DNA of 64,000 bases from Saccharomonospora sp. NB11. Lineage in GTDB: Bacteria; Actinomycetota; Actinomycetes; Mycobacteriales; Pseudonocardiaceae. Below the pieces are notes generated by a model. It had not been told where the DNA came from. It worked only from the letters and a program-made list of their open reading frames with translations, and ran no database searches. The translations under genes and the position numbers were made by a program. Positions 9,030-26,568 of the stretch are shown in pieces. How positions within the stretch are numbered: the first letter of the stretch is position 1; every line of letters starts with the position of its first letter. The stretch covers positions 248,001 through 312,000 of the forward strand of contig NZ_JACBJG010000005.1 in the NCBI RefSeq assembly GCF_015910535.1, in the 5' to 3' direction.

Positions 9030-9033
9030 GACC

Positions 9034-9129: not shown

Positions 9130-9135
9130 TCCGCC

Positions 9136-10100: not shown

Positions 10101-10138
10101 AGACGAACAAAACGAAAGGTGTTATGTTGCGTTCGTCT
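10101..10138 (+). promoter_or_regulatory. Inverted-repeat operator flanking the antitoxin promoter
   Basis: The arms AGACGAAC (10101-10108) and GTTCGTCT (10131-10138) are perfect 8-base inverted repeats separated by 22 bases. A -10-like TATGTT (10123-10128) lies between them, and a TAGACG -35-like element overlaps the left arm with a 17-base spacer. The layout suits autorepression by the HTH protein that begins at 10152. Confidence 0.55.
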
Positions 10139-10151
10139 GAGGGGAGGGGCC

Positions 10152-10676
10152 ATGAACGCGGCGTTGCACCAGGAGACCTACCTACCCGAAGGTGCCGGCG
10201 ACAAGCAGTTGGCAGAGGTGCACGACTTCCTGCGTGCGCTGGAGGCGGGACGGGAGCGTCCCGAACCAGCCTACTTCCTCAGTGGGGCCGAACCGGGCGA
10301 ACGTGTGGAGCTTCCCGAAGAGCTGTACCGGGTGCTTCGACAGGTGGTCGATGCGCTCCGCAATGGTCTGGCCGTGACCGTCGCCCCGCAGACGCAGACC
10401 CTGACGACCCAGCAAGCCGCGGACCTTCTGGGAGTCAGCCGACCCACCGTGATCAGGCTGCTCGACAGCGGCGAGATCCCGTTCGAGCGCGTGAACACCC
10501 ACCGCAGGATCGAACTGCGCGAGCTGCTGGCGTATCGCGAGCGACGCCGGGCCGCCCAGTACGCCGCGCTCGCCGCCACCGCCATCGACGAGGACGAGGA
10601 CGTGGACGACGTCTTGCCTCGTCTCAAGCGGGCTCGCAAAGAATTGGCCGAGCGGAGACGCCGACGCACCGATTGA
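10152..10676 (+). CDS. Excisionase-type helix-turn-helix protein, probable antitoxin of a PIN toxin
   Basis: The 174-residue protein carries a MerR/excisionase-like winged helix at about residues 90-128 (LTTQQAADLLGVSRPTVIRL, then GEIPFERVNTHRRI). An acidic stretch (DEDEDVDDV) and a basic C-terminus rich in Arg follow. This architecture is typical of antitoxins that sit in front of PIN-domain toxins in actinobacteria. GAGGGGAGGGG precedes the ATG. The toxin gene that should follow is present only as a 41-codon fragment 27 bases downstream. The antitoxin itself looks intact. Confidence 0.8.
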   Translation: MNAALHQETYLPEGAGDKQLAEVHDFLRALEAGRERPEPAYFLSGAEPGERVELPEELYRVLRQVVDALRNGLAVTVAPQTQTLTTQQAADLLGVSRPTVIRLLDSGEIPFERVNTHRRIELRELLAYRERRRAAQYAALAATAIDEDEDVDDVLPRLKRARKELAERRRRRTD

Positions 10677-10703
10677 GTGAGCAGGGCCTGGCATGATGAT
10701 CTC

Positions 10704-10829
10704 GTGTTCACGGCCCTGCTCGACACGTGCGTTCTCTGGCCGAACCGGCAACGTGACTTCCTGCTGTCCTTGGCCGCCGAAGGGGCCTATCGGCCGGTGT
10801 GGAGCGCAGCGCCGTCGTCCCGGTCGTGA
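10704..10829 (+). pseudogene. Truncated PIN-domain toxin (N-terminal remnant)
   Basis: A 41-codon GTG-initiated frame reads [20 protein letters not shown], the first strand and helix of a PIN ribonuclease, including the first catalytic Asp (residue 7). After the sequence for AYRPVWS the similarity stops, and the frame runs through a few unrelated residues to TGA. The remaining three acidic residues of the PIN active site are absent, so no ribonuclease activity is expected. It is the expected partner of the upstream HTH antitoxin. Length and order argue for a 3' deletion rather than a frameshift, since I see no continuation in the other frames before the convergent gene at 10871. Confidence 0.75.
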
Positions 10830-10870
10830 GCGGTGCGGGCACCACCCACGACCGGACGACTACTCGAACC

Positions 10871-11728
10871 TCAGAACCGCAGGTCCACCAAGTAGTCGTA
10901 TCCCACCTTGGCGGTGTCGAGCGGGTCGGCCGGGTCGTCGTGTTCGACGATGTACTGCTTCATCGGTCCGGCCCACGTGCGGCGGAACAGGCTGGCCCAG
11001 TCGATGGTTCCGGTGCCGACATCGGCCCAGGCGCCGTCCTCCCCACGGTCCTTGACGTGGAACTGCTGCACCCGACCGAATCGGCGGTAGTACTCCTCCA
11101 CCGGGTCGGCTCCGCCTTCCACCACCCAGTACAGGTCGTACTCCAGGTGCACGTTGCGGGGGCTGGTGTGCTCGGCGATGACGTCGATCGGGCGCACTCC
11201 GTCGACGGCCCGGAACTCGTGGTCGTGGTTGTGGTAGCCGTAGGAGATCCCGGCTCTGCGGAACGCCGCCGCGGCCTTGTCGAGACGGTCCGCGAACGCC
11301 CGCCACTCCGCCAGCGTCGAATAGTTGGCGTAGGCGCAGGCGGCCTTGCGGTAGCCGAGGATCTTCGCGTCCTCGATGAGCGCGTCGACGTCCTCACCGT
11401 CGAAGGAGACGTGCGCGGACGTCGCCCGCAGGTGGTAGCGGTCGAGCAGCCTGCGGAACTCCGCCGCCGAACGCCCATACGTGCCCGCGAGCTCCACCGA
11501 CCGGTACCCGATGTCGGCGAGCGCCTCCAGCGTGCCTTCCAGGTCGGCTTCGAACAGGTTCCGGAGCGTGTAGAGCTGGATGCTGAGCTGCTGTCGGGGA
11601 ATCCGTCTGCCTCGCCGGCCCCAATCGGCGTGCGCGGTACCGCTCATCGCGCCCGCGAGCCCGACGGCGGCCACGGCACCCGCCGCAGTGCGGAACATCG
11701 CTCTCCGGGAAAGCTTCGTGTCACTCAT
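10871..11728 (-). CDS. Tat-exported sugar phosphate isomerase/epimerase-like TIM barrel
   Basis: The 285-residue protein begins with a twin-arginine signal: [20 protein letters not shown], followed by a likely cleavage site near AHA-D (about residue 35). The mature part is a xylose isomerase-like TIM barrel ([62 protein letters not shown]), with the His/Glu/Asp pattern of metal-binding members. Such secreted barrels are found with 3-keto-glycoside and Gfo/Idh/MocA systems. The start overlaps the stop of the preceding barrel gene by ATGA. It is the last gene of the ten-gene operon. The substrate is unknown; it probably acts outside the membrane. Confidence 0.85.
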
Positions 11729-12747
11729 GGCGTGTACGTGTCGTCCTTCCCTGTGCTGAACGCGGCGTCGAAAGCCGCCTCGGGCTTGTCGAACAACTGG
11801 CTGCGGATGTAGGTGACGGCCTCGGCGGCACCGCGCAGGCGGTCCATGCCCGCGTCCTCCCACTCCACTGAGATGGGCCCGGTGTAGCCGATGGCGTTCA
11901 GCGCCCGGAATGCGCTCTCCCAGTCCACGTCGCCGTGTCCGGTGGAGACGAAGTCCCAGCCCCGGCGAGGATCGGCCCACGGCAGGTGCGAACCGAGCCT
12001 GCCGTTGCGGCCGTCGAACCGCTTCTTCGTGTCCTTGCAGTCCACGTGGTAGATGCGGTCGGCGAAGTCGAGGATGAAACCCACCGGGTCGAGGTCCTGC
12101 CACACGAAGTGCGACGGGTCCCAGTTCAGGCCGAAGGCGGGCCGGTTGTCCACGGCCTCCAGAGCCCGCTTGGTGGTCCAGTAGTCGTAGGCGATCTCGC
12201 TGGGGTGCACCTCGTGTGCGAACCGCACGCCCACCTCGTCGAAGACGTCGAGGATCGGGTTCCAGCGGCGGGCGAAGTCGGCGTAGCCGTCCTCGATCAG
12301 CTCGGCGGGCACCGGCGGGAACATCGCGACGTACTTCCAGATCTTCGACCCGGTGAAGCCGATGACGGTGTCGACACCGAGTTTCGCGGCGGCCCTCGCG
12401 GTGTCGGCCATCTCCGCCGCGGCCCGCTGCCGGACGCCCTCCGGCTCGCCGTCGCCCCAGATGCGGGCGGGCAGGATGTTGCGGTGTCGCTGGTCGATCG
12501 GGTCGTCGCACACCGCCTGGCCGACGAGGTGGTTGGAGATCGCCCACACCTTCAGCCCGTGGGAGTCGAGCAGCTCCAACCGGTCGGCGACGTAGTTTTC
12601 CTCGGACAGCGCCCGGTCCACTTCGAAATGGTCGCCCGAACAGGCGATCTCCAGGCCGTCGTATCCCCAACTCGATGCGAGCCGGCAGACCTCCTCGAAC
12701 GGCAGGTCGGCCCACTGGCCCGTGAACAGCGTTACCGGTCGACTCAT
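11725..12747 (-). CDS. Sugar phosphate isomerase/epimerase-like TIM barrel (cytosolic)
   Basis: A 340-residue xylose isomerase-like TIM barrel without a signal peptide. Motifs include [42 protein letters not shown] (metal-binding Glu/His region), [28 protein letters not shown] and [12 protein letters not shown], all in the order seen in metal-dependent ketose isomerase/epimerases. The start ATG overlaps the stop of the phosphodiesterase gene, and the stop overlaps the start of the Tat-exported paralogue. The pair suggests that related reactions run on both sides of the membrane. The substrate is not known. Confidence 0.85.
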
Positions 12748-14144
12748 CGGTGAGCGTCCTCTCGGATTCCGTGGAGTTGCAGGAGCAGATGACGGACGTC
12801 GGTGGCGGCGAGGCGACCTCCGGACTCCACCACCGCCGGCACGGCGGGGTCGGAGCAGAGGAGCATCGGGCCGTGGTCGGGCGAGTCGGGCAACCGCCCG
12901 TGTGAACCGCGGACCCATCGCGGGTCGGTGGGCACCACGTTCATGGCGTATCGCAGCCCGAACTTCTTGCGGACGAGGTTGAGCCCGGCCTTGGCCTTGG
13001 CGAACCGGTCGGTCGGGTCGAAGAACAGCTCCGCCGGGTCGTAGCCGGGCTTGCGGTGGATCTCGACACCGCGCGCGAAGTCGGGTGCGAGGTCGTCGTC
13101 GAACCAGTAGTAGTAGGTGAACCACGCGCGGGGCTCGGCCACCGCGACGAACTCGCCGGCGCGCTCGTGGTCGAGCCCGTACCGGGACTGGGCCTCGCGG
13201 TCGAGCACCTCGTCGACGCCCGGCAGCGTCTCGACGATCTTGCGGACCCGGGGCAGGTCGGCGTCGTCGGCGACGTAGACGTGCGCGACCTGGTGGTCGG
13301 CCACCGCGAACGCCCGGGACGTCCACGGGTCCAGGTACTCCATGCCGTCCTGGGTGTAGACCTCCAGCAACCCCTCCCGGCGCAACGCCCGGTTGACGTC
13401 CACCGGTGTGTCGACCGACGTGATGCCGTACTCCGACAACGCGACCACCGTGATCCCCGACCGCTCGGCGTCGGCGAGCAGCGGGCCCAGCACCGCGTCG
13501 ACCTCCCGGGCGGCGTGGGCGGCTCGTGGCGAGTCGGGGCCGTACCGCTGGAGGTCGTAGTCGAGGTGCGGCACGTAGGCCATCGTCAGGTCGGGGTTGT
13601 CCGTACGCAGGATGCGCCGCGTCGCCTCCACGATCCACCGCGACGACGTGATCGACGCCGTGGGTCCCCAGTACTGGAAGAGCGGGAACGGGCCGAGTTC
13701 GGCCGTCAGCGCGTCGTGCAGGTGTGGCGGTCGCACGTAGCAGTCGGGGGACTTCCGCCCGTCGGCGTGATAGATGGGGCGCGGGGTGACCGTGATGTCG
13801 GTGGTCATGCCCATCGCGTACCACCAGCAGACGTTCGCGGCGGTGTAGTCGGGATGCGCCGCCCGCGCGGTCTCCCACACCTTCGGCCGTTGCACGAGGC
13901 GGTTGTGCTGCCGCCACAGGTAGATCTCCCCGAGGTCGCGGAAGTACCACCCGTTGCCGACGATGCCATGCTCGACCGGCATCGTCCCGGTCAGCAGGGT
14001 CGACTGCACGCTGCACGTGACCGCGGGCAGCACGGTGCCCAGTTCGGCCCGCCAACCCCGGTCGGCGACCTTCGACAGGTTCGGCATGTGCCGCAGCAGC
14101 GCCGGGGTCATCCCCACGACGTCGAGCATCAGCACTTTCCTCAT
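12744..14144 (-). CDS. Alkaline phosphatase superfamily phosphodiesterase/nucleotide pyrophosphatase (EboF-like)
   Basis: The 466-residue protein belongs to the type I phosphodiesterase/nucleotide pyrophosphatase branch of the alkaline phosphatase superfamily. It has [11 protein letters not shown] at the N-terminus (metal-binding Asp), [15 protein letters not shown] with the nucleophilic Thr/Ser region, [13 protein letters not shown] (metal His/Asp) and [13 protein letters not shown]. No signal peptide is visible, so it appears cytosolic. In Ebo clusters the equivalent gene is called EboF. The start was placed at the ATG overlapping the EboE stop; a longer upstream frame has no family similarity. 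It probably hydrolyses a phosphodiester or pyrophosphate of the pathway product. Confidence 0.85.
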
Positions 14145-15241
14145 GCGGCGACCTCCGTCCGTGCCCAGCGCAGTTCGTCGGCGATTCCGTCGGCGAGGTC
14201 GACGTGGTCGGCGTCGGGCAGCACCGTCCACGTGTACGTCTCGACCTCGACGTGGGGCAGCGGCCGACCGCTCGTCGCGAGCGCGGCCACGGCGTCGGTG
14301 AGGACGTCCGTCGTCGACGTCAACGGCGCGCGGGGCCGGGCGTGCAGCGGCACGTGGAAGTGCACGCGCCACGGCCCCTCCCCCGGCAGTTCCGCGAGGG
14401 CGTCGTCCAGGTCGTCGGCGGCCAGCACCTCTCCCGTCGCCGAGCGCTCACGCACCTGGTGCAGGTACCGGGGTTCACAGAAGTCGGCCAGCGCCCGGCG
14501 CGCGTCGGGGTCGCGCGGCTGGTCCACGTGCAGCGCGGCCGACGCCTGCACCTTGACGACGTCGAGCCCGGCGGCATGAATGCGTCGGACCTCCGCGCCG
14601 GGGTCGGCGAACGACACGGCGAGGTGGCAGGTGTCCAGGCACACGCCCACGTGCTCGGCGTCCACGCGGCCCGAGAGCCACGACACCGCGTCGGCGACCG
14701 TGTCGAGCACGCAGCCGGGTTCGGGTTCCACCGCGAGCCGCAACGGCCGCCCGCCGTGGTCGGAGAGCCGTCGCGCGTGCACGACCACCTCGTCGAACGC
14801 GGCGACGGCACGGTCGTCGTCGGCACGGCTCCACGGCTCGCGCCACGCCAGCGGCAGCGTCGAGATGCTGCCGTACTCGGCGTCGGGGTGCAGCAGGTCG
14901 GCGAGCACCGTCAGACAGTCGCGCGTGTACGCGACCCGACGCGGATCGGTCCATTGTGGAACGTAGACCGCGTGTTTGACCACCGCGTCGTGGAACCCGC
15001 CGTAGGGAAAGGCGTTGAGCGTCTGCACGCCCAGGCCCCGGGCCGACAGCTCACGGGCGAGCCGGGACCGGGCACCGGCGTCCGTCGCCAACGCCGAGGC
15101 CACGTCCGCCGCGAGCCACAGCCCCACTCCGAGGAGGTCGACGTCGAGCCGCTTGCGGATCACGGCCGCGTAGGTGTCGAGCTGCGCCACGATCCCGTCG
15201 AGATCCTGGGCCGGGTGCACGTTGGTGCAGTAGGAGAGCAC
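14141..15241 (-). CDS. eboE: EboE-family metabolite traffic protein (TIM barrel)
   Basis: The 366-residue protein opens with [16 protein letters not shown], the conserved EboE start. It continues as an AP-endonuclease-2-like TIM barrel ([70 protein letters not shown]). EboE is one of the defining proteins of the Ebo (eustigmatophyte-bacteria operon) clusters, which have been linked to export or trafficking of prenylated metabolites and to scytonemin in cyanobacteria. Its biochemical reaction is unknown. The GTG start lies three bases after the TatD stop and the stop overlaps the next gene. Confidence 0.9.
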
Positions 15242-15244
15242 GGG

Positions 15245-16108
15245 TCACTTCCTCGCGCCACGGAGCACGGAGTTGCCCTCGAACGTCTCCGCCGTCGGTG
15301 CCGACCCCGGCACGGGATCGAGCATCAGCTTGCCGCTCTGCCCGTAGAAGGCCACCGGGTTGTCCCACAACACCTTGTCCACATCAGACTGAGTGAATCC
15401 CGCGTCGAGCATCGCGGTTCCGGTGTGCAGTGTCTTCAGCGGATCGGAGCGACCCCAGTCGGCGGCGGAGTTCACCAGCATCCGGTCGGTGCCGTACTCC
15501 TTCAGGATCGCCACCATGCGGTGCTCGTCCATTTTCGTGTCGGGGTAGACGGAGAAGCCCATCCAACACCCGGAGTCGGCTACGAAACCGACCGTGACCT
15601 CGTTGAGGTGGTCCACCACCACGCGTGCCGGGTCGATACCGGACTCGCGGACGACGTCGAGGGTGCGCCGGGTCCCCGACAGCTTGTCGCGGTGCGGGGT
15701 GTGGACGAGCACGGGAAGGTCGTGCTCGATCGCGAGGCCGAGCTGGTGGGTGAACGCCTTCTCCTCGGCCTCCGTCATCGAGTCGTAGCCCACCTCGCCG
15801 ACGGCCACCACGCCGTCCTTGGCGAGGTAGCGCGGGAGGACATCGAGCACCTCGACGCACCGCGGGTCGTTGGCCTCCTTCGGATTCAGCGCGATCGTGC
15901 AGTGGTGGCGGATGCCGAACTGGGAGGCCCGGAACCGCTCCCACCCGATCAGGGAGTCGAAGTAGTCGGTGAACGAACCGACGTTCGTGCGCGGCTGGCC
16001 GAGCCAGAACGCCGGCTCGACGAGCGCGCGGACCCCGGCCGCGTACATGGCCTCGTAGTCGTCGGTGGTGCGCGACGTCATGTGGATGTGCGGGTCGAAG
16101 ATCTTCAT
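15245..16108 (-). CDS. TatD-family metal-dependent hydrolase (EboB-like)
   Basis: The 287-residue protein is a TatD-like amidohydrolase-fold hydrolase. The metal site begins with FDPHIHM (residues 4-10), followed by GVVAVGEVGYDSM with the bridging Glu, VLVHTPHRDK, VVVDHLNEVTV and LVNSAADWGRSDP with the final Asp. TatD proteins are generally nucleases or phosphoesterases. The version in Ebo clusters (EboB) has an unknown substrate. The ATG overlaps the stop of the TIM-EboA fusion (ATGA). Confidence 0.88.
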   Translation of the reverse strand: MKIFDPHIHMTSRTTDDYEAMYAAGVRALVEPAFWLGQPRTNVGSFTDYFDSLIGWERFRASQFGIRHHCTIALNPKEANDPRCVEVLDVLPRYLAKDGVVAVGEVGYDSMTEAEEKAFTHQLGLAIEHDLPVLVHTPHRDKLSGTRRTLDVVRESGIDPARVVVDHLNEVTVGFVADSGCWMGFSVYPDTKMDEHRMVAILKEYGTDRMLVNSAADWGRSDPLKTLHTGTAMLDAGFTQSDVDKVLWDNPVAFYGQSGKLMLDPVPGSAPTAETFEGNSVLRGARK

Positions 16109-17532
16109 CGGGCGACCTCCTCGTCGGTGGTGCCGAGGGCCAGGATCGCCTCGGCGTCGGGCGGCACGGGGCGGCCTGCGGCTCGGCGTTCGGCCGCGAA
16201 ATCGGAGACCATGCGGACCAGTTCCGCGTCGCGACGTCGGTCCAGGTCGACGACGGCGGCCGTGGGCACGCCGGTGAACAGGCACTTCAGCACGCCGTGC
16301 CGCCAGGCGTGGTCGTCGAGGTGGTCCGCCGCGAACCGACCGAGCGCGGCGGCCACGAGGCCGGTGTCGTTGGCCCGCAGCGCGTCGGTGACCAGGCGGA
16401 CTCCCAGTTCGACGACGTGAGGGTCGTCGGTGGGAAGAACGTGGAGGTTGCGCAGGACACCGCGTCGCTCGGCGCCGTCGCCGTAGCGGTAGAGCTCCTC
16501 CACCTCCTTGACGAGCGTGTCGGTGTCCAGGGCGGACGCGAGCGCCGCGAGCAGTCGGCCGCGCGCGCGGTCGTCGAGCGTGCCGTGCACGAGCCCGTCC
16601 GGGTCGACGTCGGGGCGGACCGCGGTGCGGCCGACCTTGCGGCCCACGGCGGGGAAGGACGTGCGGACGCGCGACGGCTCCGACCGGATGGCGGTCTCGG
16701 TGTCGACCACCCACTCCGCCGCCGCCAGTGCCGCCCTCGCCCGCCGCGCGACGTCGGGAGCGGCGTGGCTGTGCCGGGGCAGCTCCACCGCCGCCAGCCC
16801 CGCGTACCCGACGTCGGCCAGCGCGGCCAGGGTGTCGGCGAGGTCGAGCTGTCCCTCCCCGAACTCCAGGTGTTCGTGCACCCCGGGACGCATGTCGTCG
16901 AGCTGGACGTTGAGCAGCAGCGGAGCGGCCCGCCTGACGCACTCGGCGGCGCTGACCGGCTCCACCGCCACACAGTGGCCGACGTCGAGGGTGATGCCGA
17001 GGTTGTCGGGACGCCCCAGCTCCTCGTACAGGCGCAGTGCTTGATCGAGGTGCTGCACGTGGTGACCCGGCTCGGGTTCCAGCGCGAAGCGGGCCTCGGT
17101 GTGCTCCAGCACCGTCGCCACCCCCGCACTCAGCCGCCGCCACGCCGTCTCGTCGTCCACCCCCGGATCGGCGACGCCCGACCAGAACGACACGCACTCG
17201 GCCCCGAGGTCGACGGCGATGTCGGCCGCGCGGCGGAGGAAGTCGAGCCGCAGCGCGGGGTCGTCGGAGAGCAGCGTCGGCTGGTGCTTGCGCCAGGGGT
17301 CCAGCAGGAAGCGCGCCCCGGTCTCGACCACAACCCCGAGTCCCAGCTCGGCCAGGCGGGCGGCGACCCGCTCGGTCTGCGCGACCACGTCGTCGGCGAA
17401 CGGGTCGAGGTGGGCGTGGTCCAGTGTCAGCGCCACCCCGGAGTAGCCGAGGTCGGCGATGATGGCCAACGCGTCGTCGAGCCGGTGGTTGGCGAATCCG
17501 TTGGTGCCGTAGCCGAATCGCAGTGTGCTCAC
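16105..17532 (-). CDS. Sugar phosphate isomerase/epimerase TIM barrel fused to an EboA domain
   Basis: The 475-residue product has two parts. Residues 1 to about 265 form an AP-endonuclease-2/xylose isomerase-type TIM barrel (LRFGYGTNGFANHRLDDAL; GYSGVALTLDHAHLDP; FALEPEPGHHVQHL; LGITLDVGHCVAVEPVS; VQLDDMRPGVHEHLEFG; AAVELPRHSHAAPD). The rest is an EboA domain (SFPAVGRKVGRTAV; LYRYGDGAERRGVLRNLHVL; FLFTGVP-like KCLFTGVPTAAVVDLDRR). In most Ebo clusters the barrel and EboA are, to my knowledge, separate neighbouring genes; here no stop or start separates them. The fusion implies that the two act on the same substrate or complex. The GTG start overlaps the EboC stop. Confidence 0.85.
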   Translation of the reverse strand: MSTLRFGYGTNGFANHRLDDALAIIADLGYSGVALTLDHAHLDPFADDVVAQTERVAARLAELGLGVVVETGARFLLDPWRKHQPTLLSDDPALRLDFLRRAADIAVDLGAECVSFWSGVADPGVDDETAWRRLSAGVATVLEHTEARFALEPEPGHHVQHLDQALRLYEELGRPDNLGITLDVGHCVAVEPVSAAECVRRAAPLLLNVQLDDMRPGVHEHLEFGEGQLDLADTLAALADVGYAGLAAVELPRHSHAAPDVARRARAALAAAEWVVDTETAIRSEPSRVRTSFPAVGRKVGRTAVRPDVDPDGLVHGTLDDRARGRLLAALASALDTDTLVKEVEELYRYGDGAERRGVLRNLHVLPTDDPHVVELGVRLVTDALRANDTGLVAAALGRFAADHLDDHAWRHGVLKCLFTGVPTAAVVDLDRRRDAELVRMVSDFAAERRAAGRPVPPDAEAILALGTTDEEVAR

Positions 17533-18392
17533 GTGGGGCTCACCTTCCTCGCGAGTCGCCGCGCCAGGGGCAGCGCGGTCACCAGCACGCTCGCCGCACG
17601 CACGGCGCCGTGGCGGGCCGCGAGCGTGGCCTGCAGCGGGACCATGCCGTGGATTCCGGCCTTCGTCGCCTCCCGCACCCGCCGCGCCGTCGGTTCCCGC
17701 AACGCCGCGCACTGGGCTCGGCCCACCGACGAGACGTACGTGCCGGAGAACACCGCCGTGGCAGCCCTGCGGAGTCGACCACCACCGCGCACCGCCGGAC
17801 GCTGCCTCGTCGCGAGGACGGCGGAGCCCGCCGTCGCGGCGAGGGCACCGCCCGCAATCCGGGTCGACGTGCCGTGCACCTCGCCGGTCGACAACGCGGT
17901 GACCCCGAGCGTGTGCAGTCCCAGTGCCGACGCGGCGGGCAGTGCCGCTCGCTCCCGGCCGGGCGCGCCGAGCAGCACGTCGAGTGCGCGGCAGGCCGCC
18001 ATGCCCACCGGGCCGAACGCCGTGCCCTTGACCGTGGTGTCGTAGGCCCACACGCAGGCCGCGAGGGACAGCGCCGTGCGCCACGCCCGGCGTCCGCCGC
18101 CCACCCTGGCGAGCCCGAGGCCCACCGCCGTGAGCCCGACCCCCGTGGCGAGCGCGGCGGACGCGCTCACCCGACCCGACGGGATCGGTCGTTCGGGCCG
18201 CTCCACCGCGTCGAGTTCCCGGTCTGCCCAGTCGTTCAGGGCCATGCCCGCCCAGTAGAACGCCGCCGACGCCAACGGGAGCAGCCGTGCCCGGCCCCGC
18301 AGCCGAGTACCCGCCGCCGCGGCCCCGGCCACCGTGTCGCCGACGACGGTCAGCGCGGCGGGAGCCCGCACGAGTTCGACGTAGGCGCTCAC
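17529..18392 (-). CDS. eboC: UbiA-superfamily prenyltransferase (EboC / SCO3242 family)
   Basis: The 287-residue membrane protein is rich in Ala/Leu/Val segments and has the UbiA motifs NDWADRELDAVERPERPIPS (the first Asp-rich NDxxDxxxD motif) and AYDTTVKGTAFGP (second motif region, weaker than in canonical UbiA). It should transfer a prenyl group from a polyprenyl diphosphate to a polar acceptor at the membrane. In this operon the acceptor could be a cyclitol made by the inositol-phosphate synthase encoded immediately upstream. That is inference. The GTG start overlaps the stop of the synthase (GTGA), and its own stop overlaps the TIM-EboA start. Confidence 0.88.
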   Translation of the reverse strand: MSAYVELVRAPAALTVVGDTVAGAAAAGTRLRGRARLLPLASAAFYWAGMALNDWADRELDAVERPERPIPSGRVSASAALATGVGLTAVGLGLARVGGGRRAWRTALSLAACVWAYDTTVKGTAFGPVGMAACRALDVLLGAPGRERAALPAASALGLHTLGVTALSTGEVHGTSTRIAGGALAATAGSAVLATRQRPAVRGGGRLRRAATAVFSGTYVSSVGRAQCAALREPTARRVREATKAGIHGMVPLQATLAARHGAVRAASVLVTALPLARRLARKVSPT

Positions 18393-19681
18393 AGCGTGGC
18401 CGCCCAGTCGACGAGCGCCGAGAACTGCTGGGCGAGCCGATGTTCGTCACTGCCCAACGGGTCCTTGAAGAAGAACCCGAGTTCCCCGAGCGGGCCCGTG
18501 CTACCCGCCGCGTGGGCCGCGGCCGTGAACCGCGCCAGGTCCAGCACCAACGGAGCAGCGAGCGAGGAGTCGTAGCCCGACCACGTGAACTGCAGGCTCA
18601 TGCGCGCCCCGAGGAAACCTTCGAACGACACGTGGTCCCACGCGATCTTCTGCTCGCCGAGGTCGGGCACGTTGTCGATGTGCAGGGGCGCGGTGACCTC
18701 CCTGCCGAGCAGCGTGGCCAGCCCGCGTCCCTTCGACGCGAGTTTGCTGCCCGCGTGCTCGGCGTCGGCCAACGTCATCCCGTCGCCACCACCGAGCAGG
18801 TTCGTCCCCGCCCACGACCGCACGGTGAGAGCCCGGGTGGTGAACATGGGAGCGAGCGTGGTCCGGACCAGGGTCTCGCCGGTCTTGCCGTCGGAGCCCG
18901 CGTAGGGAATGCCACGCCGGTCGGCCAACGCCGTCAACGCGGGCAGGCGCACCCCGGTCGACGGCGTGAAGTCGACGAACGGACAGTCCGCGCGCAACGC
19001 CGCGTAGGCCGCCACCGAACTGGGCGGCAGGACCGTGCGCCCCGGCACGGCCATGGCCGCCTCCAGCGCTTCGAGACTCTCGTGTTCGGGCAGGGCGGGG
19101 AAGACGGGTTCGGTGGACGACACGTTGACCACCACGACGCGGGCGAGGTCGTGCCGCCTCGCGAACGCGGTGATGTCGGACGCCAATGCTCGGGCCGCGT
19201 CGGCCTGGGTGCCCGAGTGGGTCGCGGGGTGGTAACCCGACCGCAGTTCACCATCCACATCGGACAAGGAAGGGCGAACCGCTTCGAGGACCCGGTGCGG
19301 GATCACACCCGCGTCCGCGAGCAGTTCGGCCCGCTTCTCCAGACTCGTGTCGGTGATGTCGTGCCCGCCGACGTGGAGCTCGTCCCAGTCCGGCAACGGC
19401 ACGTCCGCGAACTCCGGCAGCGCGCTGACGCAGCCGACGGCCGGAACGACCCCCGCCCGCAACGCGAGCAGGCCCGTGATCGCCGTGGTGGCGACCGACC
19501 CCCGAGCACCGATCAACCACAACCCTGTGGGCGCCATGCTGAACCAACCCCAGTCCGTGTCGTTCGCGGTGGACTCGAACCACCGCGCCTTGCCCGACCC
19601 TTTCACGCCGTTTCGCCTGATGAGCGCATCGACGCGCTCGTCGTGGCGGCTCCCGGGCGGGTGATCGTGCCGCGCCGTCAC
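18389..19681 (-). CDS. Inositol-3-phosphate synthase family NAD-dependent cyclase
   Basis: The protein has 430 residues from the GTG chosen. The Rossmann signature is GLWLIGARGSVATTA (about residues 55-69). Family motifs follow: YAGSDGKTGETLVRTTLAP, NLLGGGDG and SFEGFLGARMSLQF. Myo-inositol-phosphate synthases cyclise glucose 6-phosphate. This branch is the one that accompanies EboC in actinobacteria, and it stands where cyanobacterial clusters have EboD, a 3-dehydroquinate-synthase-like sugar phosphate cyclase. The GTG at 19681 leaves 15 bases to the upstream stop, and the extra 48 codons have about 90% G/C in third positions. The alternative ATG at 19537 (382 residues) starts just before the Rossmann motif and matches the usual family length. 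Confidence 0.82.
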   Translation of the reverse strand: MTARHDHPPGSRHDERVDALIRRNGVKGSGKARWFESTANDTDWGWFSMAPTGLWLIGARGSVATTAITGLLALRAGVVPAVGCVSALPEFADVPLPDWDELHVGGHDITDTSLEKRAELLADAGVIPHRVLEAVRPSLSDVDGELRSGYHPATHSGTQADAARALASDITAFARRHDLARVVVVNVSSTEPVFPALPEHESLEALEAAMAVPGRTVLPPSSVAAYAALRADCPFVDFTPSTGVRLPALTALADRRGIPYAGSDGKTGETLVRTTLAPMFTTRALTVRSWAGTNLLGGGDGMTLADAEHAGSKLASKGRGLATLLGREVTAPLHIDNVPDLGEQKIAWDHVSFEGFLGARMSLQFTWSGYDSSLAAPLVLDLARFTAAAHAAGSTGPLGELGFFFKDPLGSDEHRLAQQFSALVDWAATL

Positions 19682-19696
19682 CCGCCCGGGAGAGGT

Positions 19697-22600
19697 TCAC
19701 GACTCGACGGGCAACGGTGTGCTTCCGTCGACGTGGCCGGCGAGAGCGCGACCGTCTCGCACCAGCGCGTCACGTGCTCCCGCGTCGGAAGCCCGATCCG
19801 CTCGCTCCCCGAAGGCGGCGGGCGCCGGCTCCGCCTGCTGTGGCCTGTCACGGTCGAGAGCCCGCTCCGGCGCGGTCGTGTCGAGCTCGGCGATCCGGAC
19901 GTTGCGGAACCAGACGTCGTCACCGTCGCCGTGGTTCTGAAGGCCCACGAACCCACTGGTGAGGTCGCGGTTCTCGTCGGCGTTGACGAACTCGTTGATC
20001 ACCGTCCCGTTGAGGGACACCGTGATCGTCTGGTCGCGGACCACGATCTCGTAGGAGTTCCACTCCCCCGGCGGCTTCAGCGCTGCGTCGCGCGCCTCGA
20101 TGTCCGCCGACTGGAAGTCGTAGATCGCGCCCGTGGTCTTGTCCGGGTCGTCGGTGGGGTCGATCTGGATCTCGTAGCCCTCGTTCACCGCGACCCACGG
20201 GTCGTCCCCCGGGTCGGGGAAGCCGACGAACACCCCGGAGTTGTCGTCGTCGGCCATCTTCCAGTCGAGCTTGAGGCTGTAGGCGCCGAACTCCTCGCCG
20301 AACCACAGCAGCCCCATCCCGCCGACCGACCTGATCGAGCAGTCATCCTCCAGCTCGAACGAGCCAGGTCCGGCCTGGTTCCAGGCGTCGAGCGAGGACG
20401 CGGTGCCGTCGAACAGCATCCGGTAGCCCTCCTCGGGCTGGGCGGGTTCGCATTCCGAGGGCGAGGTACCGGGCGCGGCGACTCCCTCGCCGTCGACGTG
20501 CAGGACGTCCACGTCGAACAATCCTCCGCTGCCCTCTCCGCGGAACACCAGGTACAGCGGCCCCTTCTCACCCGGATCGGTGACAGGCACGGGGCCGATC
20601 TCCGTGTACTCGTCGAATCCGCCCGTGTTGGGCACGTCCACGGTGTGGATCACCGGACCGTCGACCGCGCCGATCCGCGCCTCGATCGTGCCGCCGTCGC
20701 CGCCCGACGAGACGCGGTAGGTCACGCCGTCGACGCCGGTCAGATCGGCCGGGTCGAGCGCGATCCAGTCGCCGTCGTCGATGTGGCCGATGCGCTTGCC
20801 ACCACTGGCGCCCTCGGCCTCGACGACCTCGACACCCTCGTGCTCGGTGAAGAACTCCGCCTGCTTGATCTTCGGCTGCAGGACGACCTCGTCCGACCCT
20901 TCGAGCGCGGGCACGTCACCGGCACCGGTGTCGGTGTAGCTCGCGTTGACGACCCCGAAGATGTCCGCGTCGAGCCCATGCCCCTCGTCGGCAGGGGTCT
21001 CGATGGTTCCGTCGCACCCGGTCGCCCTCGACAACGGGTGACCGTGGTTGTCGTGGCCGAGGATGTACTCAACGGTGACCTTCGAGCAGTCGATCTCGCC
21101 GTCCTCCGGGTCCGTGACGGTCACGCGGAACGGCACGCTGTCACCGAAGCCGAAGAACCCGCCGTTCACCGGCGCCTCGATCGTCACCGTCGGAGCGGTG
21201 TTGCCGACCGTCACCACCACGCTCGCGCTGCCGGTGAGACCGCCGGAGTCGGTCACCGCGAGCCGGGCGCTGTACTGCCCATCCTGCTCGTAGACGTGGG
21301 TCACCGGACCGGCCTCGGTCGAGTCGGTCTCCCCGTCACCGTCGAAGTCCCAGGCGTAGGAGAGTTCGTCACCGTCACCGTCCTCGGTCCCCGACGGGTC
21401 GAACGTCACCTCCAGGGGCGCCTGCCCCGACGTCACGTCGGCCGACAGCGACACCTGCGGCGTGCGGTTGCCCTTCGTGTAGTCGATGCGGTAGACCGCC
21501 GAGTCGGCCGCGCCACCGAAGTAGCCGCTGCCGTAGTCCAGCACGTACAACGAGCCGTCGGGCCCGAACTCGATGTTCATCGGCCGCGTCAACTGCATGG
21601 AGTCGAAGAACGGCTCGATCGCGCCCGGCTCGCCGTTCTCCCCGATCTCGATCGTCTTGATCCAGCCGCGGTCCCATTCGTAGGCGAAGTTCTTGCCGTC
21701 GTAGTACTCGGGGAACTTCGTGTCGACGTCGAGGTCGGCGTCGAAGCGGTACACCGGGCCGCCCATCGGCGACTCGCCGCCGGTGCCGAACTCGGGCACC
21801 GAACCACCGTCGTAGGGAATCCACGCGGGCTGCACGGGCGGCAGCTCCGTGAGACCGGTGTTGTTCGGGCTGTCGTTGACGGGAGCGTCGCAGTCGAACG
21901 CCTCGCCGGACGTGCCGGTCGCGAAGTCGTGGTCGACGTAGGGTTCGTTGTCGCCCACGCAGTACGGCCAGCCGAAGTTGCCGGGCTCCTTGACGAGGTT
22001 GAACTCCACCATGCCCGCCGGGCCGCGGTTCGGGTCCGCCGCGCCCGCGTCGGGACCGTAGTCACCGACGTAGAGCCACCCGGTCTCCTTGTCGACCGCG
22101 AACCGGAACGGGTTGCGGAAGCCCATCGCGTAGATCTCGGGCCGGGTCTTCTCCGTCCCCGGCGCGAACAGGTTGCCCTCGGGGATCGTGTAGCTGCCGT
22201 CCTCCTGCACCGTGATACGCAGGATCTTGCCGCGCAGGTCGTTGGTGTTGCCCGAGGTGCGCTGCGCGTCGAACGCGGGGTTGCGGTCGGCTCGCTCGTC
22301 GATGGGTGTGAAACCGTCCGAGGCGAACGGGTTCGTGTCGTCGCCGGTCGACAACAGAAGGTTGCCGTCGGCGTCGAAGTCGATCTCACCACCGGCGTGG
22401 CAGCAGATGCCACGGTTGGCGGGCACCCGCAGAATCTGCTGTTCGCTGGCGAGGTCCAGCGTGCCGTCGTCGGTGAACCGGAACCGCGAGAGCTGGTTGT
22501 AGCCGTCGTACGGCGCGAAGTCCTCCGGCGAGCCGGTCTCGGGCGCGTCCCCGTCCGGCGTGTCCAGCGGCGGTGCGTAGTACAGGTAGACCCAGTGGTT

Positions 22601-23668
22601 GTCCTCGAAGTCCGGGTCGATCGCGATGCCCTGCAGACCGTCCTCGTCGTGGTTGTAGACGTCCAGCGTCGCGGCCACGGTCGTGTTGCCCTCGGGCGTG
22701 GTCACGAAGACCCGGCCGTCGCGGGAGGTGTGCAGCACGCGGCGGTCGGGCAGCACCGCCAGCGCGATCGGCTCGCCGGTCACCTCCTGCCCCTTGGCGA
22801 GGGTGATCTGGTCGAAGTCGTCGTCGGCGGGCGCGTCCCCGCCCGGGTCGGCCGAGGTGGAGCAGTCGGCGTCGGCGAGGCCCGCCGCGTACCGGATGCC
22901 ACCGGCGAGATGCGCGAGGAACTCCGGCTCGGCGAACGACTCGGCGGTGTGTCCGCCGCCGGTGTACCAGGCCCGTCCCCCGCTGTTCTCGTGGCACCAG
23001 GCGATCGGGTGGTCCTCACCCATCCCGCCGGAGCCCGCGTCGTAGCTGCTCTCGTCGAGCGTGGCGAGCACGCGGACGTGCTGCCGTGGGTTCTCGCGGT
23101 AGTTGTACCACTCGTCGGTGCGCACCCACTGTTCCGGAAGGTCCGCTGTGGACGGGTGATCGGCGTCCTCGACCGTCACCGTCGCCTCTTGGACGTGGGG
23201 GTGCGAGTCGAACCACGCACCCACGAGGTCGCCGTACCACGGCCAGTCGTACTCGGTGTCCGACGCGGCGTGCACACCCACGTACCCGCCGCCGCCCTGG
23301 ACGTAGCGCTCGAAAGCAGCCTGCTGCTCGTCGTTCAGGACGTCCCCGGTGGTGGACAACCACACCACGGCGTCGTAGCCCGCCAGGTTCTCGTCGGTGA
23401 AGGCCTCCGCGTCCTCCGTGGCGTCCACCGAGAAGTGGTGTTGCTCGCCGAGCCGTTCGACGGCCTCGATCCCCGCCGGGATCGAGTCGTGCCGGAAGCC
23501 CGCGGTCTTCGAGAAGACGAGAACGCTCGCTTCCTCGTGCTGGGCCTGCTGTTCCGCGGCGGCGACGACACCGCCCGACGCCAGGCCCGTGGTCAACGCC
23601 AACGCCGCGACACCGACTCTCCAGCCGCGTCGCGTCGTGGTCCCGCTGGTACTACTGCTTCGTTGCAC
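19697..23668 (-). CDS. Secreted multidomain sugar-active protein: ThuA + glucose/sorbosone dehydrogenase + PKD + CBM6-like + DUF1080
   Basis: The 1323-residue protein starts with a Sec-type signal peptide (basic N-terminus, then VGVAALALTTGLASGGVVAAA). Domains in order: ThuA-like (about 46-270; VLVFSKTAGFRHDS, YVGVHAASDTEYDW); a PQQ-type glucose/sorbosone dehydrogenase propeller (about 285-700; DEDGLQGIAIDPDFEDNHWV, GFRNPFRFAVD, GNFGWPYCVGD); a PKD domain (about 715-800; YAWDFDGDGETDSTE); a CBM6-like module; and a DUF1080/3-keto-disaccharide hydrolase-type domain near the C-terminus (RMLFDGTASSLDAWNQAG, NSYEIVVRDQTITVSLNG). AGGAG lies nine bases before the GTG. It probably oxidises or cleaves extracellular glycosides. 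Its position before the Ebo-like genes is unusual. Confidence 0.85.
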   Translation of the reverse strand: MQRSSSTSGTTTRRGWRVGVAALALTTGLASGGVVAAAEQQAQHEEASVLVFSKTAGFRHDSIPAGIEAVERLGEQHHFSVDATEDAEAFTDENLAGYDAVVWLSTTGDVLNDEQQAAFERYVQGGGGYVGVHAASDTEYDWPWYGDLVGAWFDSHPHVQEATVTVEDADHPSTADLPEQWVRTDEWYNYRENPRQHVRVLATLDESSYDAGSGGMGEDHPIAWCHENSGGRAWYTGGGHTAESFAEPEFLAHLAGGIRYAAGLADADCSTSADPGGDAPADDDFDQITLAKGQEVTGEPIALAVLPDRRVLHTSRDGRVFVTTPEGNTTVAATLDVYNHDEDGLQGIAIDPDFEDNHWVYLYYAPPLDTPDGDAPETGSPEDFAPYDGYNQLSRFRFTDDGTLDLASEQQILRVPANRGICCHAGGEIDFDADGNLLLSTGDDTNPFASDGFTPIDERADRNPAFDAQRTSGNTNDLRGKILRITVQEDGSYTIPEGNLFAPGTEKTRPEIYAMGFRNPFRFAVDKETGWLYVGDYGPDAGAADPNRGPAGMVEFNLVKEPGNFGWPYCVGDNEPYVDHDFATGTSGEAFDCDAPVNDSPNNTGLTELPPVQPAWIPYDGGSVPEFGTGGESPMGGPVYRFDADLDVDTKFPEYYDGKNFAYEWDRGWIKTIEIGENGEPGAIEPFFDSMQLTRPMNIEFGPDGSLYVLDYGSGYFGGAADSAVYRIDYTKGNRTPQVSLSADVTSGQAPLEVTFDPSGTEDGDGDELSYAWDFDGDGETDSTEAGPVTHVYEQDGQYSARLAVTDSGGLTGSASVVVTVGNTAPTVTIEAPVNGGFFGFGDSVPFRVTVTDPEDGEIDCSKVTVEYILGHDNHGHPLSRATGCDGTIETPADEGHGLDADIFGVVNASYTDTGAGDVPALEGSDEVVLQPKIKQAEFFTEHEGVEVVEAEGASGGKRIGHIDDGDWIALDPADLTGVDGVTYRVSSGGDGGTIEARIGAVDGPVIHTVDVPNTGGFDEYTEIGPVPVTDPGEKGPLYLVFRGEGSGGLFDVDVLHVDGEGVAAPGTSPSECEPAQPEEGYRMLFDGTASSLDAWNQAGPGSFELEDDCSIRSVGGMGLLWFGEEFGAYSLKLDWKMADDDNSGVFVGFPDPGDDPWVAVNEGYEIQIDPTDDPDKTTGAIYDFQSADIEARDAALKPPGEWNSYEIVVRDQTITVSLNGTVINEFVNADENRDLTSGFVGLQNHGDGDDVWFRNVRIAELDTTAPERALDRDRPQQAEPAPAAFGERADRASDAGARDALVRDGRALAGHVDGSTPLPVES

Positions 23669-23711
23669 TGGTACCTACTCCTCGTCCCCCAACACGTGGG
23701 ACCCGTGCCGA

Positions 23712-24878
23712 CTACACCTTCACGAAACTCGATCCGTTCTCCGCACTGCGTTCGACCGCCGCCAGCACGCGCTGCACGCGCAGCCCGTCGGCGAAACTCG
23801 GCTCCGGTGGCGTGCCCGACTCGATCGCGGTGAGCAGGTCCGCGAGCTCGTGGGTGAACGTGTGCTCGTACCCGAGCACGTGTCCCGGCGGCCACCAGGC
23901 GCCGACGTAGGGATGGGTGGGTTCGGTGACGACGATGCGCCGGAATCCCTCGGTCTCCGGTGCGTCGGCGCCGTCGTGGAACCACAGCTCGTTCATGGAC
24001 TCGAAGTCGAAGGCCAGGCTGCCTCGCGAGCCGTTGACCTCGATCCGCATCGCGTTCTTCCTGCCCAGCGCGTATCGGGTCGCCTCGAAGCTGCCCACCG
24101 CGCCGCCCGAGAACCGGGCCGTGAACAACGCGCAGTCGTCGACCGTGACGTCCTCCAGGCCGCCTGCGGTGTCGGACGGCCGCTGCCGCACGAACGTCTC
24201 CGTCAACCCCGACACACCCGTGATCGTCTGGCCGGTGACGAACTGTGAGGCGTCGATGATGTGCGCGCCGATGTCGCCCAGCGATCCGGACCCGGCCTGC
24301 TCCCTGCGCAGCCGCCACGTCATCGGTGCCGCGGCGTCGGCGAGCCAGTCCTGCAGGTAGGCCGCCCGCACGTGGCGGATCTCGCCCAACCGCCCCTCGG
24401 CGACCAACCGGCGGGCCAGCGCGAGCGCCGGGACCCTGCGGTAGTTGAAGGCGACCATCGAGAACACGCCGCGCTCACGAGCCTGCTCGGCGGCCCGCAC
24501 CATGCGCTCGGCCTCGTCGACCGTGTTGGCCAGCGGCTTCTCGCACAACACGTGCTTGCCGGCCTCCAGCGCGGCGATCGCGATCTCGGCGTGCGTGTCG
24601 CCCGGCGTGCAGATGTCCACGAGGTCCACGTCGTCGCGTCGCACGAGCTCTCGCCAGTCGGTGCTGGACTCCGCCCAACCCATCCGCTGCGCCGCCTGCG
24701 CGGTCCGTTCCGGGTCCCGACCGCCGAGGACGACCATGGTCGGCGACCGGGGGACGTCGAAGAAGCGCGCCACGCTCCGCCACGCCTGCGAGTGCACGGC
24801 ACCCATGAACGCGTGGCCCACCATGGCGACCCGCAGTTCGGGTCGCCTGCCGTCGTTGCTGTTCGTCTGTTCAGTCAC
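23712..24878 (-). CDS. Gfo/Idh/MocA family NAD(P)-dependent sugar oxidoreductase
   Basis: This 388-residue oxidoreductase has an N-terminal Rossmann domain (RVAMVGHAFMGAVHS, VDLVDICTPGDTHAEIA) and the family motif HVLCEKPLANTVDEAE with the catalytic Lys. The C-terminal alpha/beta domain includes GSLGDIGAHIIDASQFV, whose Asp and His match the second catalytic positions. Family members oxidise a ring or side-chain hydroxyl of a sugar or inositol, or reduce 3-keto-glycosides. It is the first gene of the operon, 43 bases before the large secreted protein. A TATAAG -10-like hexamer lies about 80 bases upstream (complement of 24963-24968) without a clear -35. The Rossmann motif GxGxxG is altered to GHAFMG. 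Confidence 0.87.
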   Translation of the reverse strand: MTEQTNSNDGRRPELRVAMVGHAFMGAVHSQAWRSVARFFDVPRSPTMVVLGGRDPERTAQAAQRMGWAESSTDWRELVRRDDVDLVDICTPGDTHAEIAIAALEAGKHVLCEKPLANTVDEAERMVRAAEQARERGVFSMVAFNYRRVPALALARRLVAEGRLGEIRHVRAAYLQDWLADAAAPMTWRLRREQAGSGSLGDIGAHIIDASQFVTGQTITGVSGLTETFVRQRPSDTAGGLEDVTVDDCALFTARFSGGAVGSFEATRYALGRKNAMRIEVNGSRGSLAFDFESMNELWFHDGADAPETEGFRRIVVTEPTHPYVGAWWPPGHVLGYEHTFTHELADLLTAIESGTPPEPSFADGLRVQRVLAAVERSAENGSSFVKV

Positions 24879-25089
24879 GAGTCGAAACCCACCACGTTCG
24901 CTTGATCCGCGGCGGAGGCGAGTCGGGGCGACGCACTCACTTGGCCGCTCGCCGCGTGCAGACTTATATCCACATCAGCCCCACTTTCTTCTCTGGCATG
25001 CAAAAGTAGGGCGACGACGGTGCAAGCGTCAAGCGTCCAGTCGGGAAGTCAGGCGGGAGTGGTAGCCGAAACAGCCGGTGACCAGCAGG

Positions 25090-26568
25090 TCACCACCACT
25101 TGAAAGTCATGTGCCGGAACGAGGGCCACAGCTCGGCCCACGACGCGGTCCGGCCCTCACACAGCCAGATGGGCGCACCCTGGTTGTCGTTGTTCACCTC
25201 GTGGCCGTTGTCCACGGTGCCCAACAACGTCACGCGCTCGAAGAACGTCGCGAGCTTCTCCCGATCGCCGCCGACGAACAGCGTCAGCGGAGCGTCCTCG
25301 GGCGGGGCTCCGAAGTACCAGTAACCCCGACCCCCACTGTGCGCCTCGGGCAGCGACGGAGCGAACTTCTCGATCGCGGCCGCCTGCCAGTAGGTCTCGG
25401 TGACGATGGTGGTCGCCGCCTGCTGCTCGGGGTCGAGGCCCGCGTACGCCGACGCGACATTGGCCGCGACCTGCGGCCACCCGAACTCCTCCAGCTCCAT
25501 GTTCATCGGGTCGTACGGTTCCCCCGCGTACGCCGAGATCGGTTTGACCGGCAACCAGCTCACCGCCACCAGGGCCGACACCGCGTAAGCCACCACCACG
25601 GCGGGCCGCCACCGCGCCGTGAGGACCCGGTCCAGCTCGACCGCCGACGCGGCGAAACACAGCGCGAACATCCCGCCGACGTAGTAGGGCCTGCCCGACG
25701 ACAACCAGAACACGGCCGTCACCCCGAGCACGGTGAGGCCCAGGAAGCGGTACGACCGCAGCCTCGGCGAGCGCAGCAACCACCACACCCCGAGCACCAC
25801 CAGCACGGCGCCGACGCCGTATCCGGCCTGTTCGAGCGCCATCGGCAGGAACGTCGCTCGCCCGCCCGCGTACGACACCTCGTCGGCGACGATGCGGTTC
25901 ATCTCCAGTTGCGGCCAGCCGTTGGCGACCTGCCACAACAGCGTCGGCACGCACGAGGCCACGGCGATCGCCGCACCGACCCACAGCAGCGGTCGGCGCA
26001 CGAGGTCCTTCGGCCCCACCAGCATGGACGCCAGCAGGGCGATCACCCAGAACACCGGGATGAGGAACTTGACCTGCAGGTCGACGGCCGTCACGAGGGT
26101 CGCGGCGAGCAGCACACGGTCGTCCCGCACCCGGACCCACCGCACCACCAGCCAGACGATGATCGTCCACAGGAACGCGTCGACCATGTGGGTGGCGAGA
26201 ATGTGGCCCGCACCTGCCAGTAGGAACGGCGAGCACGCGTAGGCCCCGGCCGCCATCACCTGCGCCCGAGTGCCACCCCGGAGTTCCCGCGCCGTCAGGG
26301 CTGCCACGACGACCCCGACACCGGTGAACAGCACCGCGGGAAGCCGGAACCCCATCACGGAATCCGGGAAGAGACTGTCCATCAGCAACGCCAGCAGCGG
26401 CAACAGCGGCGGCTGATCGGCGTAACCCCAGTCGAGATGGCGGCCCGCGGCAATGAAGTACAACTCGTCGCCGTGGTAGCCGTACCGGTCACCGAAAGCC
26501 AGCAGCACCACCATGGCGGCGCAGGCCACGAGACACACCGGAAGCCGGGCGAAGCGCGGGACGGCCAT
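25090..26568 (-). CDS. GT39/ArnT-like membrane glycosyltransferase (dolichyl-phosphate-mannose type)
   Basis: The 492-residue integral membrane protein has about ten hydrophobic segments and a soluble C-terminal part. The first loop reads GYHGDELYFIAAGRHLDWGY, with the acidic Asp-Glu pair conserved in the GT-C family (PMT/ArnT). The family transfers a sugar from a polyprenyl phosphate carrier on the outer face of the membrane. The start was taken at the ATG at 26568, directly before the first hydrophobic segment; the frame extends to a GTG at 26598. An inverted repeat (GGTGACC-AGCA-GGTCACC, 25077-25094) overlaps its stop. It appears monocistronic. Confidence 0.82.
   Translation of the reverse strand: MAVPRFARLPVCLVACAAMVVLLAFGDRYGYHGDELYFIAAGRHLDWGYADQPPLLPLLALLMDSLFPDSVMGFRLPAVLFTGVGVVVAALTARELRGGTRAQVMAAGAYACSPFLLAGAGHILATHMVDAFLWTIIVWLVVRWVRVRDDRVLLAATLVTAVDLQVKFLIPVFWVIALLASMLVGPKDLVRRPLLWVGAAIAVASCVPTLLWQVANGWPQLEMNRIVADEVSYAGGRATFLPMALEQAGYGVGAVLVVLGVWWLLRSPRLRSYRFLGLTVLGVTAVFWLSSGRPYYVGGMFALCFAASAVELDRVLTARWRPAVVVAYAVSALVAVSWLPVKPISAYAGEPYDPMNMELEEFGWPQVAANVASAYAGLDPEQQAATTIVTETYWQAAAIEKFAPSLPEAHSGGRGYWYFGAPPEDAPLTLFVGGDREKLATFFERVTLLGTVDNGHEVNNDNQGAPIWLCEGRTASWAELWPSFRHMTFKWW

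Follow-up and report, generated by a model that had tools for sequence, protein, structure and literature searches.

A MIPS-type ebo gene cluster placed within a candidate 3-keto-glycoside module in Saccharomonospora sp. NB11

What does an ebo gene cluster make when it lies inside a locus for handling sugars? The ebo operon was named in 2016. One general proposal for its product is an isoprenoid-cyclitol compound (PMC5133447). In Nostoc, moving a scytonemin precursor into the periplasm requires the ebo genes (PMC6282210), and the only in vitro substrates of EboC relatives found in the print available to us are aromatic: among 14 aromatic compounds, 8-hydroxyquinoline-2-carboxylic acid was the one best farnesylated by flavobacterial EboC relatives (PMC9235831). 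The question is raised here by ten genes on the minus strand (24878-10871) of a 64,000-nucleotide stretch of the Saccharomonospora sp. NB11 genome (GCF_015910535.1, contig NZ_JACBJG010000005.1, positions 248,001 to 312,000), referred to below as the window. Loci and genomes of relatives are cited by our own L and G numbers. A sequence-only reading of this DNA had named the families of all ten genes, and Pfam and NCBIfam profiles (the latter with curated cut-offs) agree with it (Table 1). Our preferred reading, to which we give about an even chance of being right as a whole, is that the locus joins a core of ebo type built around a myo-inositol phosphate synthase (MIPS, EboC, TIM-EboA, EboB-like, EboE and EboF-like) to a 3-keto-glycoside module (Gfo, ThuA/GSDH/DUF1080, TIM1 and TIM2). 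The locus would be expressed as two transcripts, with secreted cleavage of a glycoside leading to glucose, inositol phosphate and finally prenylation.

The TIM-barrel protein of the core carries an EboA domain (NF035938, 164.4 bits; cut-off 50) and EboE is above its cut-off of 250 bits (NF035939, 432.2 bits). The prenyltransferase scores 368.6 bits with the SCO3242-family model NF045897 (cut-off 260) and 150 bits with the EboC model NF035940, which is under the cut-off of 250. The EboB-like and EboF-like genes match the Pfam superfamilies TatD_DNase and PF01663, at the superfamily level only. MIPS includes PF07994 and PF01658 and its nearest solved structure is the Archaeoglobus enzyme 1u1i (230 bits), whose residues N255, K274, K278, K306 and K367, which we take to be those of the MIPS active site, are all conserved in the cluster protein. 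The possibility that this is the housekeeping mycothiol enzyme was rejected: it reaches 20.7 of 638 bits with TIGR03450, and two other genes pass that model (705.5 and 694.1 bits; G000 C12:13455-14504 and C23:281994-283043, L122 and L123), giving the host genome a total of three MIPS-type genes. EboD (PF01761) was not found at the cluster; the sole PF01761 gene of the genome sits on another contig and is presumably AroB. By these profile matches the cluster is a MIPS-type ebo variant and not the six-gene type, with MIPS standing where EboD would be expected.

In a sample of 197 genomes of the class, with a linkage threshold of 20 kb, EboC occurs in 49 genomes. This MIPS is present in 48 of the 49, and 47 of the 48 pairs are linked. 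(The counts from this sample exclude three Gfo genomes, at 41-46% identity, leaving 58 of 61, as well as a single additional MIPS match of 41%.) The presence of MIPS with nearly all EboC genes fits a cyclitol intermediate supplied by a different ring-forming enzyme. Five Herbidospora loci (L051, L060, L061, L062 and L064) show only EboC, a short TIM/EboA-type match and the phosphodiesterase; no MIPS, TatD or EboE was seen in them by tblastn at 1e-8.

As far as the published descriptions available to us go, the ebo operon eboA-F (PMC5133447, PMC6282210, PMC9235831) likewise groups EboA, an EboC-like protein, EboE, a TatD-like protein and a PF01663 protein. In contrast, the window has MIPS instead of the EboD sugar phosphate cyclase, the order MIPS-C-A-B-E-F, and a core that lies within a glycoside module, after Gfo and before TIM1. 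The operon, the actinobacterial TIM-EboA hybrids and a Saccharomonospora ebo cluster are all already published (PMC5133447, PMC9235831). The accessible sections of the open-access ebo literature contain no mention of MIPS replacing EboD, nor of a glycoside module, and the word 'inositol' is absent from the accessible text of PMC5133447 and, as the start of a word, from those of PMC9235831 and PMC6282210. In the part available to us, the account of the S. coelicolor CDA antibiotic cluster lists SCO3242 as a putative transferase and SCO3243 as a myo-inositol phosphate synthase (PMC3610822). SCO3242 is the namesake of our prenyltransferase family and is numbered next to the synthase; unlike the cluster of the window, this pair is listed in an antibiotic cluster.

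The genes around the core are related to enzymes of sugar oxidation. The best solved relative of Gfo is 4h3v (546 bits), for which no function is named, followed by 6a3f (298 bits), listed as a putative dehydrogenase and which we take to be levoglucosan dehydrogenase, and a scyllo-inositol dehydrogenase (235 bits). In Pfam the 1323-aa protein carries ThuA, glucose/sorbosone dehydrogenase (GSDH), PKD and CBM6 domains and a 3-keto-disaccharide hydrolase (DUF1080) domain, and its N-terminus resembles, by eye, a secretion signal. The nearest structures to TIM1 are 2zds (592 bits) and then the 2-hydroxy-3-keto-glucal hydratase 8ro4 (161 bits), while TIM2 matches 8tcd (107 bits) and the 3-keto-O-glycoside beta-eliminase AtOGE (8bvk, 91 bits). 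The N-terminus of TIM2 resembles a twin-arginine signal (SRRAMF...AHA-DW); Pfam TAT_signal gives no match to TIM2 at E 0.001. Judged by this N-terminus, TIM2 is probably exported rather than intracellular. AtOGE uses His134 as the catalytic residue and H132, D163, H189 and E233 as metal ligands, according to the part of its description available to us (PMC10628242); H132, H134, D163, H189 and E233 correspond to H166, H168, D198, H224 and E262 of TIM2, so that all five are kept. These comparisons support a resemblance of Gfo, TIM1 and TIM2 to enzymes that oxidise and cleave 3-keto-glycosides.

The same proteins could be imagined to act instead on the inositol made by MIPS, oxidising it to an inosose that is then dehydrated or isomerised, all ahead of the EboC prenylation. 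This is consistent with weak matches to the IolE (inosose dehydratase) model (TIM1 42 bits, TIM2 60 bits), with the 120 bits of Gfo to the inositol 2-dehydrogenase model, with its match to the scyllo-inositol dehydrogenase structure, and with locus L115, where a second MIPS follows TIM1 and no EboC is present in the sequence examined. The inositol-model scores are, however, all under the cut-offs (290 bits for IolE and 355 for inositol 2-dehydrogenase), the glycoside-enzyme matches are stronger, TIM2 appears to be exported and many genomes that lack this MIPS have the Gfo-TIM1 pair. We regard such tailoring of a cyclitol as quite improbable. Locus L115 itself (919-16490) has the arrangement importer-Gfo-ThuA-TIM1 followed by MIPS; its genome, G136, carries EboC and another MIPS on a different contig.

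A route of oxidation, elimination, hydration and reduction has been described, in the texts as available to us, for levoglucosan (PMC7676230) and for plant glucosides (PMC10628242). To the extent covered by those sections, the levoglucosan operon lgdA-lgdB1-lgdB2-lgdC with its ABC transporter (PMC7676230, PMC10066097) resembles the window in having a Gfo-type dehydrogenase and TIM-barrel 'sugar phosphate isomerases', and resembles the window's relatives, only, in having an importer and a ROK gene. The window differs in a Gfo which is under the LgdA cut-off, a large and apparently secreted ThuA/GSDH/DUF1080 protein, an apparently exported TIM barrel, the ebo core inside the module and the absence of an importer at the locus. 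The Agrobacterium AtOGE/AtHYD glucoside pathway (PMC10628242, same limit) is similar in that TIM2 aligns with the AtOGE ligands and catalytic His and TIM1 with 8ro4, and dissimilar in the apparent export of TIM2 and in a different set of oxidoreductases. An open-access literature search pairing 3-keto-glucoside, DUF1080 and other terms found no paper.

In the preferred reading, a glycoside would be oxidised or cleaved outside the cell by the large secreted protein, and exported TIM2 would split the 3-keto-glycoside by beta-elimination. The sugar product would then enter the cell, through a dedicated importer in many relatives but seemingly through none in the host strain. Inside, TIM1 would hydrate 2-hydroxy-3-keto-glucal, Gfo would interconvert keto and hydroxyl forms to give glucose, and MIPS would cyclise glucose-6-phosphate to inositol phosphate. 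EboC would attach a prenyl group to a ring acceptor at the membrane, and the Ebo enzymes would process the product. What the sequences establish is the gene content, the hairpin, the recurrence of the linkage and the active-site residues kept in MIPS and TIM2; we infer each of these reactions, as well as secretion, termination, the direction of flow and the feeding of one module by the other. The acceptor of the prenylation could equally be an aromatic aglycone, and a prenylated cyclitol and its export are likewise predictions.

Whether the two modules form one transcript is a separate matter. The sequence-only reading had described a single ten-gene operon, chained from MIPS to TIM2 by overlaps or gaps of at most three bases, with gaps of 43 and 15 bases before it. 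The chain is indeed present: of the seven MIPS-to-TIM2 junctions, TatD-EboE leaves a gap of 3 bases and the other six are 4-base overlaps. For Gfo-ThuA the figure of 43 bases was also confirmed. The 15-base ThuA-MIPS gap did not stand. It needs a GTG at 19681, which is within the stem of the inverted repeat 19650-19692, and with the conserved ATG at 19537 as the start, 159 bases separate the two genes. The frame upstream of this ATG meets a stop 32, 5, 25, 35 and 42 codons before it in L001, L002, L003, L004 and L007, respectively, and an in-frame stop occurs at most 48 codons before the ATG in 38 of the 66 MIPS loci examined. Counter to the ATG start, the longer frame stays open in the window itself, and its tblastn similarity runs upstream in L002 (residue 11), L007 (residue 6) and partly L026 (residue 30); in L002 and L026 this similarity passes over a stop lying 5 codons ahead of the MIPS start. 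Because the upstream frame has stops in the relatives, ATG 19537 was taken as the MIPS start and 159 bases as the gap. A single operon with a 15-base gap was set aside, since its GTG start is part of the hairpin and, in the nearest relatives, stops interrupt the frame upstream.

The boundary hairpin is part of a 61-nt stretch which folds at -40.5 kcal/mol (z -5.7), a value as low as which none of 200 shuffles gave. Across the window, L001, L002, L004 and L007 every one of the 14 pairs is preserved, and two of them have changed on both sides; the statistics of these five sequences are weak by themselves, with the covariation score reached in 28 of 500 shuffles and the both-side changes in 196 of 500. 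Junctions were also compared across loci L001-L100 (window excluded, custom gene caller, five single-base shuffles for each gap). Of the 35 ThuA-MIPS junctions found, 29 have a gap of 40 bases or longer, and a strong hairpin is present in 24 of the 29, where the shuffles gave an expectation of 1.0. The junctions of the ebo core, including MIPS-EboC, are mostly closed and include 18 gaps of at least 40 bases with one strong hairpin; at Gfo-MIPS junctions, the order of many Amycolatopsis, the count is 2 of 12. Such hairpins are not unique to the ThuA-MIPS boundary: they also occur at SBP-Gfo (14/44), PERM-SBP (6/35), Gfo-ThuA (5/17), ROK-ROKb (5/12), PDE-ThuA (4/9) and XylA-ThuA (4/5) junctions. 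The hairpin at 19650-19692 has no T-run and is not among the sites of a T-run terminator scan, which gave two terminator-like sites where 4.3 were expected, both of them away from the module boundary. A sigma-70 promoter scan found no site. Because a strong hairpin stands at the module boundary both here and in relatives, the locus is probably read as two transcripts, 24878-19697 (two genes) and 19537-10871 (eight genes), with termination probably taking place at 19650-19692.

A single operon making an exported prenylated cyclitol, as first suggested for this locus, would agree with the gene set and order and, within the published text available to us, with the isoprenoid-cyclitol synthesis proposed for ebo (PMC5133447) and the part played by the Nostoc genes in bringing the scytonemin precursor to the periplasm (PMC6282210). 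Against it stand the boundary hairpin, the gap of 159 rather than 15 bases, and relatives which carry importer, not exporter, genes; we consider it very unlikely. Genes for an ABC sugar importer, as well as a ROK gene, often accompany the sugar module in relatives, which weakens export as the direction of flow. Among 31 TIM1 loci without adjoining ebo genes, a gene for the importer binding protein is nearby in 22 (9/11 and 13/20 in two sets), a count that leaves out L113, with a binding protein about 7.5 kb off, and in which some negatives are short contigs. The importer representatives match ABC_tran, BPD_transp_2 and Peripla_BP_4, with a binding protein of the ribose type, and the regulator-like gene matches ROK. 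The binding proteins of L001 and L002 are 86% alike. No exporter was identified at the locus of the window, where most flanking genes were not searched. Relocation of the importer elsewhere in the host genome was also considered: of binding protein, permease and ATPase only the first was searched for, and it was not found. The position upstream of Gfo, taken by importer genes in L001 and L002, is occupied in the window by a PMT_2-type glycosyltransferase gene (24879-26598).

A broader view, which taken as a whole we think unlikely, is that actinobacterial ebo is the lipid-linked half of a glycoside-harvesting system and not a free-standing export pathway. Glycosides would be opened outside the cell by 3-keto chemistry and enter through a dedicated importer; MIPS and the Ebo enzymes would then receive the sugar or the freed ring compound. 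Their product would be a prenylated compound that serves as carrier, signal or protectant, and MIPS would have taken over from EboD as the ring-former.

The sequence-only reading had proposed a look at co-occurrence of these families in other actinobacteria, and the tie between the modules does recur there. EboC and TIM1 (49 and 65 genomes of the class sample, respectively) are found together in 43 of the 197 genomes and within 20 kb in 31 of these, in 9 genera; several of the 12 genomes scored as unlinked have matches at contig ends, so that linkage may be undercounted. The figures are 28 of 38 for EboC-Gfo and 53 of 57 for Gfo-TIM1. Our locus set comprises the best 80 of at least 491 EboC relatives and over-represents near relatives. 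Of the 65 EboC loci for which 20 kb or more of sequence was available, 49 have Gfo, TIM1 or the importer nearby and two have ThuA-type matches only (a label with no identity floor). The order Gfo-ThuA-core-TIM1-TIM2 of the window is also that of L001-L004. Others are Gfo-core-ThuA-TIM1-TIM2 (Amycolatopsis L005 and others), Gfo-TIM1-ThuA-core (L082, L084, L085) and ROK-Gfo-importer-ThuA-core-TIM1 (Streptomyces L028), and in Microbacterium L065 the core faces TIM1-Gfo. In Lentzea (L030, L031, L032, L033, L036 and L046) the core follows the binding-protein gene of a different ABC importer, the median gap being 6 bases. A tree of 84 TIM1 proteins, 53 of them linked and 31 unlinked, mixes EboC-chosen loci with the class sample and takes a phosphodiesterase gene in the sequence examined as the sign of linkage; it requires at least 14 changes of linkage, of which starred branches force at least 5. 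Shuffles give 25.4 changes, and none of 500 was as low as 14. Linkage is clustered by descent, yet has been gained or lost many times.

Could the modules be no more than neighbours? The ebo operon may have settled repeatedly in or beside a sugar-catabolism locus; the two might have regulation or a habitat in common, and no metabolite. The separate occurrence of the modules, the hairpin dividing them in the window and the clustering of linkage by descent on the TIM1 tree are all in keeping with this, which we hold to be possible though doubtful. Arguing the other way are the proximity of EboC and TIM1 in 31 of 43 genomes in several arrangements, the position of the core between Gfo and TIM1 in many genomes and the nearly gapless junction of the Lentzea core with an importer gene. 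Linkage is good evidence of a functional tie, but was not taken as evidence of a shared metabolite because 22 of the 65 TIM1 genomes lack EboC and 6 of the 49 EboC genomes lack TIM1.

Besides these two counts, several observations weigh against the preferred reading of a glycoside module feeding a MIPS-type core. EboC and TIM1 are unlinked or on different contigs in 12 of the 43 genomes with both, and 14 of the 65 long EboC loci show no Gfo, TIM1, ThuA or importer. One EboC genome, G028, is without this MIPS, and there Gfo directly precedes EboC; six Lentzea loci have the ebo core and no MIPS in the sequence examined, and a seventh, L049, ends at a contig edge. With the levoglucosan dehydrogenase model NF052479 Gfo scores 361.5 bits, under the cut-off of 650, and is a relative rather than a member. 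No importer lies beside the window genes and the best binding-protein match in the host genome is 30%. Moreover, the supply of glucose alone would hardly warrant a dedicated locus.

Two facts narrow the question of the product: the near-constant company of MIPS and EboC discussed above, and the repeated association of the ebo cluster with a single type of sugar uptake and cleavage, an association that provides defined candidate substrates. The locus would also suggest a function for 2zds, the solved TIM1 relative deposited as a 'putative DNA-binding protein'.

Table 1. Features of the ebo and sugar locus in the window.
Feature	Position	Strand	Basis
Gfo/Idh/MocA oxidoreductase	24878-23712	minus	Pfam, NCBIfam; nearest NCBIfam model levoglucosan dehydrogenase
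ThuA/GSDH/PKD/CBM6/DUF1080 protein, 1323 aa	23668-19697	minus	Pfam
Perfect 15-bp hairpin immediately downstream of the ThuA stop; transcription probably ends here, between the two modules	19650-19692	minus	
MIPS, archaeal-type, 382 aa from ATG	19537-18389	minus	Pfam and structure relatives
EboC-like UbiA prenyltransferase, SCO3242 family	18392-17529	minus	NCBIfam
TIM barrel fused to EboA domain	17532-16105	minus	Pfam, NCBIfam
TatD-like metallo-hydrolase, EboB-like	16108-15245	minus	Pfam
EboE	15241-14141	minus	NCBIfam
Type I phosphodiesterase PF01663, EboF-like	14144-12744	minus	Pfam
TIM1, relative of 2-hydroxy-3-keto-glucal hydratase 8ro4	12747-11725	minus	Sequence comparison
TIM2, relative of 3-keto-O-glycoside beta-eliminase AtOGE (8bvk), apparent twin-arginine signal	11728-10871	minus	
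Inverted repeat, 17-nt arms, 88% complementary, right after the TIM2 stop; possible transcript end	10820-10855	minus	

A further inverted repeat is present at 10679-10721. Downstream of TIM2 lies a convergent gene (9136-10035), without a Pfam family match at E 0.001, with relatives in the corresponding position of L002, L003, L004 and L007 (cluster c40).

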